A stretch of 31,538 nucleotides of DNA from Saccoglossus kowalevskii (lineage: Eukaryota > Hemichordata > Enteropneusta > Harrimaniidae): assembly GCF_000003605.2 (NCBI RefSeq), contig NW_003152760.1, forward strand, positions 27,105 through 58,642, written 5' to 3'. Below are positions 27,701 to 30,278 of the stretch, one piece after another (positions within the stretch are counted from its first letter, which is position 1; the number at the start of each line of letters is the position of its first letter). The notes under the pieces were generated by a model. The model ran no database searches, was not told the origin of the DNA, and saw only the letters and a program-made list of their open reading frames with translations. Position numbers and translations under genes: made by a program.

Positions 27701-30278
27701 GGATGATGTTTGTTGTGAGAAAACCTCAAAAGAGAAGATTTTGGAATTGTCAGATAAGATTTCTGTCGCAGTTGCTGCAGAAAAAGAACTTTCAAAAGTC
27801 AATAAGACACCGGTAGAATCGAATTCAATAGTGCAATTAAAAGATTCAGTCTCTAAGAATGTTAAAATCATTGATAAAATTGACTCTGTTAGTAAGAGAC
27901 GACGTAGAAGAGATAAAAACATAGTACCTTTACCATCTGGTGTTCCTACGTTCAAAGTTGGGAAAGGTGGAATACCATTCATACCAGCTGCCAAAGGGGA
28001 TCTTACAAAACCTCCCAGTCCTAGTGAAAAGGCCAGGTTTTTTAGGAAACCTGAAGTAAAAATACAAACTGGTGAAGATGATAAATTACCCAGTGAGACT
28101 AGTGATGTTTCTACAAGTGCAAGAATAGAACAATATTCTGCTATTGATGTAATCAGTGCTCCAGAAAATGTACAGACAAGGGACTGTAAGTCAGACAGTG
28201 AAACTGGTCGCAAAGAGGAAATTGTTCTTGAAAGATTTTTCACTTCAAGAAAAGGATTACTTGGTGGATTAGCTTCAAAAACTGGCAAGCAAAATAAAGA
28301 TATCAGTCAAGGTTCTGAAACTAGTCACATTCCCACTTCTGAAAAAAGCAACAAGGACAAGAAAGAGAAAGATAACAAACTAGAACTACCAGAGAAAGCA
28401 GTTCGGAAGAGAGGTGATAGAAAAAGAGAACGACGAAGGAGAAAAGAATTGAGGCTACAAGAAGCAGATCAGACGGAGAGTGTGACTTCTGCATTAGATT
28501 CAGAAGTACATTTTGTGGTTACTCTTCCTCAGGATAACAACAAAAAACCAGTGGAATGCATAACCGAACCATTGGATAAACCCATCACAAATGAAATAAA
28601 ATGTGATGAAACAGTCACAGCTCCAGCTCCCAAGGAATCGTCTATGCCGACTAGACGTGCATTATTCAAAGTGGCTGAATACTTAGAAATTGGAGAACAT
28701 TATGAGCAGTGTGAACAGGTAGATGCACCTAAACCTGAGCAAGCATTACTCGTGACCAGTGATTCACTGAAAGAAGAATCTGCAGTGTACACTGCCAGTC
28801 CTGTGCAACAAAGAAGAAGAGAAAAACCTGCACAGCCATCTTGTGAAGTAGTGATAAAAGAACCACAATCACATCCCAACGATGAAGATAATGATTTCAG
28901 TGTCCGATCCGCTGTGTATGCACAAGCAGGGGGAATAGAGGATCAAGGGTTACATGAGCTAGATGATCATCGACTGGAAGCTCTTAGTAGGAGAGATGAA
29001 AGAAGAAGAAGTAGGAGGCGACAACGACAAGCATCTACCGGGGACAATGACCTAGAGAAAGCACATTCCACTAAACCAGAAAGGGACCTGTTAACTGTTG
29101 TATCTTGTGACCAAGTAGTAGATGAAAATAAAAATCTGGCGCAAAGTCAAGCGTCCATTAGACAAGCAAGGGAAAGACGAAGGAGAAGGAGGTCACGCAA
29201 AAGTTCAGAAGACGAGAAAGATTTAATTCAAGCACTTGAAATATACAAGGCTGAAAGAGAAGAGGCATTGAGGGGAAATAATGACCAATCAGAACTTTCC
29301 CCTCCAGTGTATGATAATTTAGCAGAAACTGTTCAGCCATCAAGCCCTATGAGAAGTCCCTCAAGACCAAAAGAACCCATGTCTCCACACAGACGGGCTC
29401 GGTCAGTTAATAGAAATAGAAATCGTAATCGAAAAAGCCCCCAGAATGAGCCTGATGAAGGACAGCCTGAATCATCAGCCCAGTTAGAGATTTCCCAGGA
29501 ACCAATAGAGCGAAGTCCCAGTGTTTCACCTAGACCCGGGCAGAGAAAACGATGGCGAAGGCGTACGCTTGAAGGAGATCAGATTGAACTACCACCAAAA
29601 GAGGAAGTACTTGTAATATCACCATCACCAACAAGTACTCGGAGCATAACTTTTGGAATGGACACTTTAGAAATTCCTCAGTCTGCAGGAAGTCCCATAA
29701 CCTCACCTCTCATGCGGAGGAAGAGAAGTAGAAGAAGGCGACCATCTGAGGATGAGGGCACTCTTGAAACTGCAGTAGACTTTGACACACCTTATTTAGA
29801 TTCTAGTCCCCCCATGATCAGAGACGATTCTTATCGACTAGATTTATTATCAACCAGTCCAAGGGCGGTATCCCCTCTTGGAGGCTGTGCGCCAGAATCA
29901 CCTCTGTCACCACCACAGTCTCCCAGATCTTCACCAAGGTCACCCAGGTCTTCACCAAGGTCATTGTCAGTGTCATTGAGGTCATCACCTAGATCATTGA
30001 AATCATCACAAGAAGACCAATTTTCCCATTTATCACAACCAAGTGAACACACTTCCTCACCCAGGGATGAAGATAGTCAGATGTCTTCAGCGGCACCCAA
30101 CTCATTGGCACGACCCAGACCACCTCCAGGACAAGCACCAAGACAAGGGTGTATATCAGCTAGGTCAGTGTCTTTATTGTCTCCATCTTGTTCAGATCAG
30201 AATTTGTCGATATTAAGATTCTACCTTACAAACCATGGCAAAAACCATAAAAAAAAATTGCAATTTTTCACTAAATAG
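9683..30278 (+). CDS. TTBK2: Tau-tubulin kinase (TTBK1/2 family), whole spliced gene, 10 coding exons
   Basis: Serine/threonine kinase of the CK1 group. Vertebrate members phosphorylate tau and tubulin, and TTBK2 starts ciliogenesis at the mother centriole. Join: 9683-9739, 13918-13945, 14361-14480, 16917-17131, 18494-18598, 20881-20946, 22346-22438, 22939-23064, 23949-24088, 24200-30278. All introns are GT-AG and the frame is continuous for 2,342 residues. Seen in the protein: glycine loop GGGGFGE (24-30), VAVK lysine K46, helix C E60, HRDIKPSN with D137, DFG D159, TTBK signature [10 protein letters not shown], and [18 protein letters not shown] (198-215). The kinase ends near DPYDWEK (289-295). 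The first in-frame ATG preceded by a stop (TAG at 9677) sets the start. The tail is about 2,025 residues and mostly looks disordered. It is probably an invertebrate pro-orthologue of TTBK1 and TTBK2; the symbol is chosen for the PRPPPG motif. The true C-terminus may differ (see the donor at 30163/30164). Confidence 0.96.
10755..11482 (+). mobile_element. Helentron/DINE-like non-autonomous element with four 157-bp units
   Basis: The 5' part has AGCTCCGCT (10759-10767) facing AGCGGAGCT (10781-10789), a hairpin. AGCGGAGCT recurs near the 3' end (11449-11457), so the ends carry subterminal inverted repeats. A perfect hairpin CAGCC-GACA-GGCTG (11462-11475) closes the 3' side. Between them is a tandem array of exact 157-bp period. 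This plan (short subterminal inverted repeats, 3' hairpin, core minisatellite) is that of DINE/'pearl'-type Helentron derivatives known in molluscs and insects. There is no transposase. Boundaries are approximate. Confidence 0.65.
10844..11440 (+). repeat. Tandem array, period 157 bp, about 3.8 units
   Basis: GACTTCTT lies at 10844, 11001, 11158 and 11315, and GCTTTGATA at 10874, 11031, 11188 and 11345: exactly 157 bp apart each time. Units 2 to 4 are nearly identical (GACTTCTTGTTGAAAACCGC), while unit 1 is more diverged. This points to recent expansion of the later units. Confidence 0.9.
11518..11646. repeat. Short inverted-repeat segment (possible MITE remnant)
   Basis: AAAGTGTTTC (11518-11527) is repeated in reverse complement as GAAACACTTT (11637-11646). 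The interior is GC-richer than the flanks and contains two palindromes, CGATCC-T-GGATCG and TGTATTTAAATACA (11612-11625). It sits directly after the Helentron-like element. No target duplication was recognised. Confidence 0.4.
13918..13945 (+). CDS. TTBK2: TTBK exon 2: 28-nt microexon encoding the glycine-rich loop
   Basis: The acceptor is a T-rich tract ending TTTTTTTAG at 13917 and the donor is GTGAGT at 13946. It encodes VAKIGGGGF plus the first base of G29, the ATP-binding glycine loop. The length is not a multiple of 3 (phase 0 in, phase 1 out), so skipping it would destroy the frame. Exon 3 completes the codon to give GGGGFGEIY, as in vertebrate TTBK. Confidence 0.95.
13946..14360 (+). 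other. TTBK intron 2
   Basis: A 415-bp GT-AG intron. A T-run at 14262-14273 and AT-rich filler are all that is visible. Confidence 0.9.
14361..14480 (+). CDS. TTBK2: TTBK exon 3: kinase N-lobe, residues 29-69
   Basis: The acceptor ends CTACTTCCAG at 14360 and the donor is GTGAGA at 14481. It encodes [10 protein letters not shown], then HVAVKCES with catalytic K46, then [17 protein letters not shown] with helix C E60. Gly codons are split at both ends (G29 and G69). The vertebrate segment [18 protein letters not shown] is identical. Confidence 0.96.
14805..14818 (+). promoter_or_regulatory. X-box (RFX site) 1: GTTGCCTTAGCAAC
   Basis: Exact match to the RFX consensus GTNRCC(0-3N)RGYAAC with a 2-nt spacer. 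It has perfect GTTGC/GCAAC inverted arms, and one mismatch to the nematode form RYYNYYATRRNRAC. Confidence 0.6.
14858..14871 (+). promoter_or_regulatory. X-box-like RFX site 2: ATTGCTATGGTAAC
   Basis: Matches the nematode X-box consensus RYYNYYATRRNRAC at all 14 positions. Its reverse complement, GTTACCATAGCAAT, has one mismatch to the RFX consensus GTNRCC(0-3N)RGYAAC. It starts 53 bp after X-box 1. Confidence 0.55.
16290..16302 (+). promoter_or_regulatory. X-box (RFX site) 3: GTTGCCAAGTAAC
   Basis: Exact match to GTNRCC(0-3N)RGYAAC with a 1-nt spacer (GTTGCC-A-AGTAAC). It lies 1.4 kb downstream of the first pair, in the same intron. Confidence 0.5.
16492..16655. mobile_element. MITE-like element, 164 bp, 26-bp terminal inverted repeats
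   Basis: The left end 16492-16517 and right end 16630-16655 are reverse complements at 22 of 26 positions, and all four differences are transitions. The outer ten bases CTTTAAAGCG and inner ten TCGTCACCTG are identical. The element is clearly GC-richer and CpG-richer than the intron around it. Because the ends are the palindrome TTTAAA, a target duplication cannot be told from the repeat. No coding capacity. Confidence 0.75.
16917..17131 (+). CDS. TTBK2: TTBK exon 4: residues 69-140, hinge to HRDIKP
   Basis: The acceptor ends TTTTCACAG at 16916 and the donor is CCG|GTATGT at 17132. It contains [13 protein letters not shown] (70-82), FNYVVM before the hinge, NLAELRRSQ, and GFLHRDIKP (132-140) with catalytic-loop D137. 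Similarity to vertebrate TTBK is very high throughout. Confidence 0.97.
17132..18493 (+). other. TTBK intron 4
   Basis: A 1,362-bp GT-AG intron. It holds a segment with CAGTGAAAATAAAAT-like words near 17500-17660 (a similar phrase lies near position 38-53) and a 92-bp tandem duplication ending about 30 bp before exon 5. Confidence 0.85.
18257..18461. repeat. Tandem duplication, period about 92 bp, just upstream of exon 5
   Basis: CAAGACAGAGAC occurs at 18305 and 18397, and CCCACAATGC at 18325 and 18417, both 92 bp apart. CCTTCCCT at 18361 recurs at 18453 with the same period. The first unit carries about 16 extra bases in its 5' part. Confidence 0.8.
18494..18598 (+). CDS. TTBK2: TTBK exon 5: residues 141-175, catalytic loop end and DFG
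   Basis: The acceptor ends TTTTCTACAG at 18493 and the donor is GCT|GTAAGT at 18599. It encodes [23 protein letters not shown] (DFG aspartate D159) and the start of the activation segment. It contains exactly 35 codons, phase 0 at both ends. Confidence 0.97.
19226..19385 (+). repeat. Dispersed repeat, copy B (partner at 7717-7895)
   Basis: Same ordered landmarks as copy A: CACTAACACAT, TGTCAAT, ATTCAGTCAGTTAGTT, CCAGATG, GTCAAACAT, GCTACTGT and CTTTGTTTATCGCCTG. It carries a local duplication of the TTTTCC-CCAGATG stretch absent from copy A. Confidence 0.65.
20822..20871. other. Assembly gap, 50 N
   Basis: Exactly 50 Ns, a conventional scaffold-gap size, so the real gap length is unknown. 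It removes the region just 5' of exon 6 where the branch point would lie. Confidence 0.99.
20881..20946 (+). CDS. TTBK2: TTBK exon 6: residues 176-197, activation/P+1 segment
   Basis: Encodes [20 protein letters not shown] and two further residues, almost identical to vertebrate TTBK. Only nine bases (TATTTTCAG) separate it from the assembly gap, so the upstream part of its acceptor region is unknown. The donor is CGG|GTAAGT at 20947. Phase 0 at both ends. Confidence 0.96.
21519..21625. repeat. Tandem repeat, about 41-bp period, 2.5 units
   Basis: CTGTTTAAA at 21531 and 21572, and ACTGGATTAGACA at 21542 and 21583, are 41 bp apart. A diverged third CGGTTTAAA follows at 21614. ATTCTACCA occurs in units 1 and 3. 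Confidence 0.75.
22097..22165. repeat. Tandem repeat, 30-32-bp period, 2.3 units
   Basis: ATCAGCTA occurs at 22097, 22129 and 22159, with ACAATACAGCGAA ending the first two units. Confidence 0.8.
22346..22438 (+). CDS. TTBK2: TTBK exon 7: residues 198-228, C-lobe
   Basis: The acceptor ends TTCTTTGCAG at 22345 and the donor is AAG|GTGAGA at 22439. It encodes [18 protein letters not shown] followed by [11 protein letters not shown], a hallmark of the TTBK family. Phase 0 at both ends, 31 codons. Confidence 0.97.
22439..22938 (+). other. TTBK intron 7
   Basis: A 500-bp GT-AG intron, AT-rich. Nothing further is seen. Confidence 0.9.
22939..23064 (+). CDS. TTBK2: TTBK exon 8: residues 229-270, C-lobe
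   Basis: The acceptor ends GTTTGCAG at 22938 and the donor is AAA|GTAAGT at 23065. It contains [24 protein letters not shown] and KPDYK, matching vertebrate TTBK with moderate divergence (vertebrates have FTKPDYQ where this has YEDKPDYK). Phase 0 at both ends, 42 codons. Confidence 0.96.
23065..23948 (+). other. TTBK intron 8
   Basis: An 884-bp GT-AG intron. The reading frame is open across 23757-23948 into exon 9, but the good acceptor at 23948 and the match to vertebrate TTBK begin at YLKNLL, so that extension is read-through. Confidence 0.9.
23949..24088 (+). CDS. TTBK2: TTBK exon 9: residues 271-317, end of kinase domain
   Basis: The acceptor ends TCTTTTACAG at 23948 and the donor is GG|GTAAGT at 24089. 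It encodes the last kinase helix, DPYDWEK (289-295) and the Ser/Thr stretch [14 protein letters not shown], which matches the vertebrate GSLTTTT segment just after the kinase. Phase 0 in, phase 2 out. Confidence 0.95.
24200..30278 (+). CDS. TTBK2: TTBK exon 10: giant tail exon, residues 317-2342
   Basis: The acceptor ends TTCTTATTAG at 24199, and T24200 completes G317. The frame is open for over 6 kb to TAG 30276-30278. In order: acidic run 377-413, basic Lys/Arg run 424-448, duplicated VQIWKP (684 and 695), three MEQI/MEEI motifs (952, 999, 1154), LVLRDFEQ (1038-1045, like LVVREFEN in human TTBK2), [10 protein letters not shown] (1218) and [10 protein letters not shown] (1250), Arg clusters between 1549 and 2164, SHIP (1692-1695), SPR repeats (2224-2251) and PRPPPG (2289-2294). 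No folded domain is recognised beyond the kinase. Vertebrate comparisons are from memory. Residues after about 2305 may be intron read-through. Confidence 0.93.
28323..28334 (+). other. SxIP-type EB-binding motif (SHIP, residues 1692-1695)
   Basis: Encodes S-H-I-P followed within 10 residues by KSNKDKKEK. SxIP motifs next to basic residues bind EB proteins at microtubule plus ends, and human TTBK2 has such motifs in its tail. One short motif in a 2,000-residue tail is weak evidence alone. Confidence 0.45.
30111..30164 (+). other. CEP164-binding-like proline-rich motif (residues 2288-2305)
   Basis: Encodes [13 protein letters not shown] and five more residues ending in A-R. In human TTBK2 the segment PRPPPGKPPTRPGVEAR binds the CEP164 N-terminal region, which recruits the kinase to distal appendages. 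PRPPPG is identical and the spacing to the A-R pair is similar. Human sequence recalled from memory. Confidence 0.7.

Follow-up and report, generated by a model that had tools for sequence, protein, structure and literature searches.

The plus strand of a 31,538-nucleotide stretch of Saccoglossus kowalevskii DNA (contig NW_003152760.1, positions 27,105 to 58,642; in the following, the window) carries a gene which is identified by its sequence as a tau-tubulin kinase (TTBK) gene, and the end of its tail resembles the peptide by which human TTBK2 binds CEP164. The recruitment of TTBK2 by CEP164 is one of the earliest steps in cilium formation. We regard it as reasonably probable that the encoded protein is an animal TTBK which branched off before the duplication leading to TTBK1 and TTBK2, and that a conserved CEP164-docking site, split by an intron, closes its very long tail, as predicted from the proline-rich core PRPPPG. 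This core and an alanine-arginine pair following it had been pointed out in an initial annotation of the window. The motif observation is real and its meaning probable; the earlier interpretation is plausible and partly supported, and its alanine-arginine half depends on the next exon. All TTBK2-CEP164 binding data cited here refer to the human proteins.

The TTBK gene and its kinase

Eight plus-strand exons with AG/GT borders and one common open frame make up the kinase side of the gene (13918-13945, 14361-14480, 16917-17131, 18494-18598, 20881-20946, 22346-22438, 22939-23064 and 23949-24088). The next exon encodes the tail; it is giant, with 5,964 bases (24200..30163, plus strand), is open throughout and ends at a probable splice donor. 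Spliced together, the nine exons encode 2,285 residues in one open frame; TTBK exons upstream of 13918 were not located. A gap of 50 undetermined bases (20822-20871) stops nine bases before the exon starting at 20881, the acceptor AG of which is still readable.

When the kinase part was compared with all PDB chains, human TTBK2 (447 bits) and TTBK1 (439 bits) were clearly ahead of the next match, CK1 delta (158 bits). Hence, the kinase core, which contains HRD and DFG, is nearer to TTBK1 and TTBK2 than to other CK1 kinases. It shares 198 of 267 residues with human TTBK2 and 195 of 267 with TTBK1, and 228 are common to the two human paralogues. Where human TTBK1 and TTBK2 differ (39 sites), the window has the TTBK1 residue in 9 cases, the TTBK2 residue in 12 and a residue of neither in 18; judged by these residues, the kinase sides with neither human paralogue and is about equally far from both. 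These figures, which are identity counts and not a tree, fit a single TTBK branching before the vertebrate TTBK1/TTBK2 duplication. A search for TTBK relatives in viral_contigs, using one exon as query, gave seven loci with 32-60% identity over short stretches and led nowhere, and none was present among 24 candidate stretches from genome_contigs when the kinase core was used as query.

A probable CEP164-docking motif near the end of the tail

As human reference, the peptide FPRPPPGKPPTRPG (TTBK2 residues 1074-1087, PDB 7O3B chain G) was used. Its top ungapped match in the tail is a stretch of 14 residues starting at 30111, which reaches a BLOSUM62 score of 38, while the runners-up, 14-residue stretches at 24795 and 24522, both score 26. 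Thus, the claim that no other tail segment comes as close to the human CEP164-binding motif was borne out, and so was the position of the motif near the tail end. In the frame continuing from the kinase, NSLA is followed by R (30111), PRPPPG (30114-30131, plus strand; human 1075-1080 by match to PDB 7O3B, PMC8752127) and, further on, A (30159) and R (30162). PRPPPG, the looser core RPPxG and the triplet PPP occur once each in the 2,025-residue tail as read through to 30278. The predicted docking segment as a whole (30108..30163, plus strand) comprises 18 residues plus the AG of a split arginine or serine codon and aligns with human residues 1073-1091.

According to the crystal structure of the human complex, TTBK2 prolines P1075, P1077, P1078 and P1082 stack on aromatic residues of the CEP164 WW domain, and R1076 forms a salt bridge with CEP164 D10 (PMC8752127). 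Alanine scanning in the same study identified F1074, R1076, P1077, P1078 and G1080 as particularly important, with a strong loss of binding for the F1074 mutant (PMC8752127). The human interaction has a KD of about 60 uM. Four of these five residues are present in the window (R1076, P1077, P1078 and G1080), as are three of the four groove prolines (P1075, P1077 and P1078); position 1082 is alanine and position 1083 proline. A changed F75/F77 groove in the CEP164 partner might account for the arginine at position 1074. The core docking motif is probably conserved. Searching PDB with the tail end gave four sequences, all ORC1, at uninformative E values of 0.62 to 0.65, and Pfam returned two matches for three tail pieces, each under its curated cut-off.

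Probable end of the tail exon and the second contact

Read directly from the DNA, the tail frame stays open beyond the motif up to a stop at 30276-30278, giving an apparent C-terminus SVSLL...FFTK (30164..30278, plus strand). As the likely protein end, however, this sequence was rejected on codon usage, guanine plus cytosine (G+C) content and the presence of a splice donor; it is probably intron. The probable donor, TAG/GTCAGT (30164..30169, plus strand), scores 2.83 with a donor matrix, which ranks it sixth among the 280 GT dinucleotides of the tail. Only 1.6% of 940 background GT reach this score or more, the runner-up among the 11 GT within 30050-30290 scores -0.33, and the seven scored donors of the TTBK gene range from 2.41 to 6.62.

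Codon usage was scored with a coding/non-coding codon model, for which most of the 650 tail windows belonged to the training set. For the 37 codons following 30164 the score per codon is -0.26, under all 650 tail windows (minimum 0.024), while stretches outside the training set score 0.43 (29901-30014), 0.53 (30015-30128) and 0.58 (30045-30161, overlapping the preceding one). For stop-free non-coding windows the median is -0.42, and 16% of 239 such windows reach -0.26. In parallel, G+C drops from 0.529 in 30045-30163 to 0.304 in 30164-30278. Because both G+C and codon usage become intron-like directly past the donor, SVSLL...FFTK is better explained as intron than as C-terminus. The cumulative codon score is level from 30147 to about 30201, so that codon usage would permit an exon end anywhere in this interval; the donor singles out 30163. 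More generally, an intron can be taken for a C-terminus when a tail of this kind is read from raw DNA.

This exon end has direct consequences for the second half of the docking site. For human TTBK2, a second contact with the N-terminal domain of CEP164 is predicted to involve R1091, L1092 and Y1095, and the complex is markedly weaker when residues 1091-1094 are mutated (PMC8983713). Another report places V1097, a residue of the second-contact segment, in exon 15 and describes a V1097A exchange which lowers CEP164 binding (PMC11459611), and human residue 1097 thus likewise lies in the last exon; a literature search did not locate the exact position of the junction between human exons 14 and 15. 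The basic motif of the TTBK2 C-terminus is reported to be conserved in vertebrates (PMC4773430).

The initial annotation had counted an A-R pair at matching distance as part of the likeness. In fact, GCT AGG at 30159-30164 does correspond to human 1090-1091, an alanine followed by R1091. AGG (30162-30164) straddles the donor, however, so that the codon for position 1091 reads AG plus the first base of the next exon and encodes either arginine or serine. Of the second-contact residues, the window therefore provides only 1085, which is glutamine, and 1091 as arginine or serine; counterparts of human 1092-1095 probably lie in an exon outside the window. A second-contact exon within the window was sought by translating all 79 AG sites downstream of 30200 in the required phase and was not found; the best likeness to human 1091-1097 was SLRKNKE with a score of 11. 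Most likely, the rest of the protein is encoded by a further exon outside the window.

If the human complex is taken as a model, PRPPPG would form a polyproline helix that occupies both grooves of the WW domain of CEP164, while the segment following it would bind at the seam between this domain and the three-helix bundle into which it is inserted. With the exon ending at 30163, the next exon would supply the second contact as a counterpart of human R1091-L-R-R-Y. The kinase would be tethered at distal appendages in this way, and a flexible linker of about 1,993 residues could bring it to its centriolar substrates. For bound TTBK2, access to substrates closer to the centriole wall through linkers of this kind has been suggested (PMC8752127).

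Weighing of alternative explanations

Several observations weigh against a docking site of this kind. Identity to FPRPPPGKPPTRPG amounts to 7 of 14 residues only, with F1074 replaced by arginine, P1082 by alanine and R1085 by glutamine. RPPxG alone turns up in 2.4% of composition-shuffled tails (485 of 20,000) and in 117 of 4,000 first-order Markov tails. The donor at 30164 carries C at +3, which is absent from all seven scored donors of the gene, and five GT within the tail outscore it, one of them by far (24538, 6.48), for which reason a good donor score alone proves nothing. Finally, no next exon was found within the window.

Among the alternatives, a chance or convergent proline-rich motif in a long disordered tail fares best, although we consider it unlikely. 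PRPPPG would then serve some other WW-type partner or none, and its likeness to TTBK2 would not be inherited. The ease with which RPPxG arises in shuffled tails, the loss of F1074 and P1082, and other WW-type candidates in the tail (PPLP at 24798 and 24819, PPVY at 29301) are compatible with this explanation. In contrast, shuffling the whole tail 20,000 times gave the complete PRPPPG just twice, 20,000 shuffles restricted to its last 200 residues likewise gave it twice, and a single one of 4,000 Markov tails contained it; a score of at least 38 to the human peptide was reached by 1 of 500 shuffled tails. The shuffled tail included the 37 codons after 30164, and since these null models ignore proline clustering, the true chance is probably above their figures. 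Furthermore, PRPPPG is located where the tail exon ends, and a set of SH3, GYF and EVH1 patterns gave no match at it.

An extension of the favoured reading, as a whole somewhat less likely still, would make the docking site a two-exon module older than the duplication whose intron interrupts the codon for the counterpart of human R1091. Splicing or retention of this intron could then switch the kinase between a two-contact form and a form ending in SVSLL...FFTK that has the WW ligand only.

We give an even lower probability to the stop at 30276-30278 as the true end, in which case the protein would finish with SVSLL...FFTK and keep the WW ligand without a second contact. The frame is indeed open to 30278, the donor has the weaknesses mentioned above, and no convincing next exon is seen in the window. 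The coding signal of the last 37 codons, under that of all 650 tail windows, and the fall in G+C to 0.304 nevertheless speak against it, as does the count of three poly(A)-type signals downstream, where about 4.9 are expected by composition.

Least probable is a decayed relic in a TTBK acting mainly off the centriole, for instance at spindle microtubules: F1074 and one groove proline are lost, and fly Asator is reported at the mitotic spindle (PMC10951003, PMC4407412), but the six contiguous core residues are intact, although such a run in a disordered tail would be expected to wear away by drift.

Origin of the proposed docking site and its significance

The favoured docking-site reading bears on the further proposal that recruitment of TTBK to distal appendages predates the TTBK1/TTBK2 duplication. 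This proposal is strengthened by a kinase siding with neither paralogue, by the core motif at the tail-exon end and by a study in which the proline-rich motif of TTBK1 is described as poorly conserved (PMC10412607); a motif kept here and in TTBK2 and lost in TTBK1 fits that description. It is weakened by the lack of F1074 and P1082 and by the probable location of most of the second contact outside the window. A pre-duplication origin of the docking site is thus plausible. Recruitment as the ancestral function is inferred from one sequence, together with the report on TTBK1 (PMC10412607). A literature search at the level of listings brought up no comparison of TTBK tails outside vertebrates. 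If the docking site were general in invertebrates, distal-appendage recruitment would be ancestral and its absence from TTBK1 a loss. Homology could be tested precisely and cheaply by an intron that interrupts the docking site.

Other features of the window

Besides the docking segment, the tail contains a 12-residue stretch with two PPLP motifs (24795..24830, plus strand), which shares second place among the matches to the human peptide (26) and is a possible alternative WW ligand. PPVY at 29301-29312, a class I WW ligand, is the only PPxY motif in the tail. Along 27885-29747, in the second half of the tail, there are six arginine-rich clusters, among them RRKRSRRRR, with a seventh at 24543-24596; as a guess, they might represent a recurring element that binds microtubules or lipids. 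A 21-base tandem repeat in the coding tail (29911-29963), shortly before the docking segment, encodes SPR-rich repeats.

Upstream of the located TTBK exons, a non-coding unit of 157 bases is repeated 3.8 times at 10839-11430, and dispersed relatives of it are present at 6738-6837, 6847-6946, 7344-7431 and 7517-7616. Together they resemble a mobile element with a short tandem array inside it.

Comparison with known TTBK systems

The closest known counterpart is the human TTBK2 site at 1074-1098 (PDB 7O3B; PMC8752127, PMC8983713), with which the window gene shares the PRPPPG core, the residues R1076, P1077, P1078 and G1080 and the location towards the end of a long tail. The last exon of human TTBK2 holds residue 1097 (PMC11459611), and a further exon is probably used here as well. 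The two differ in arginine for F1074, alanine for P1082 and glutamine for R1085, with the second contact of the window gene lying outside view. They also differ in the linker between kinase and site, which measures about 1,993 residues in the window gene versus about 789 in human TTBK2, corresponding to root-mean-square end-to-end distances of 44 nm and 25.5 nm by a random-coil formula. Moreover, the main SxIP motif of human TTBK2 (1051-1054) is a close neighbour of its docking site, and binding of CEP164 blocks EB1 (PMC8752127). No S-x-I-P adjoins the docking segment of the window; since the only such EB1-type motif of the tail, SHIP (28323..28334, plus strand), lies about 600 residues before PRPPPG, EB1/CEP164 competition may not apply here. 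Human TTBK1 has a similarly related kinase core (195/267), and its proline-rich motif is the one reported as poorly conserved (PMC10412607). Drosophila Asator is an invertebrate TTBK with a kinase reported to be 78% identical to that of TTBK2 (PMC4407412), and it is the protein for which the mitotic spindle localization has been described (PMC10951003, PMC4407412).

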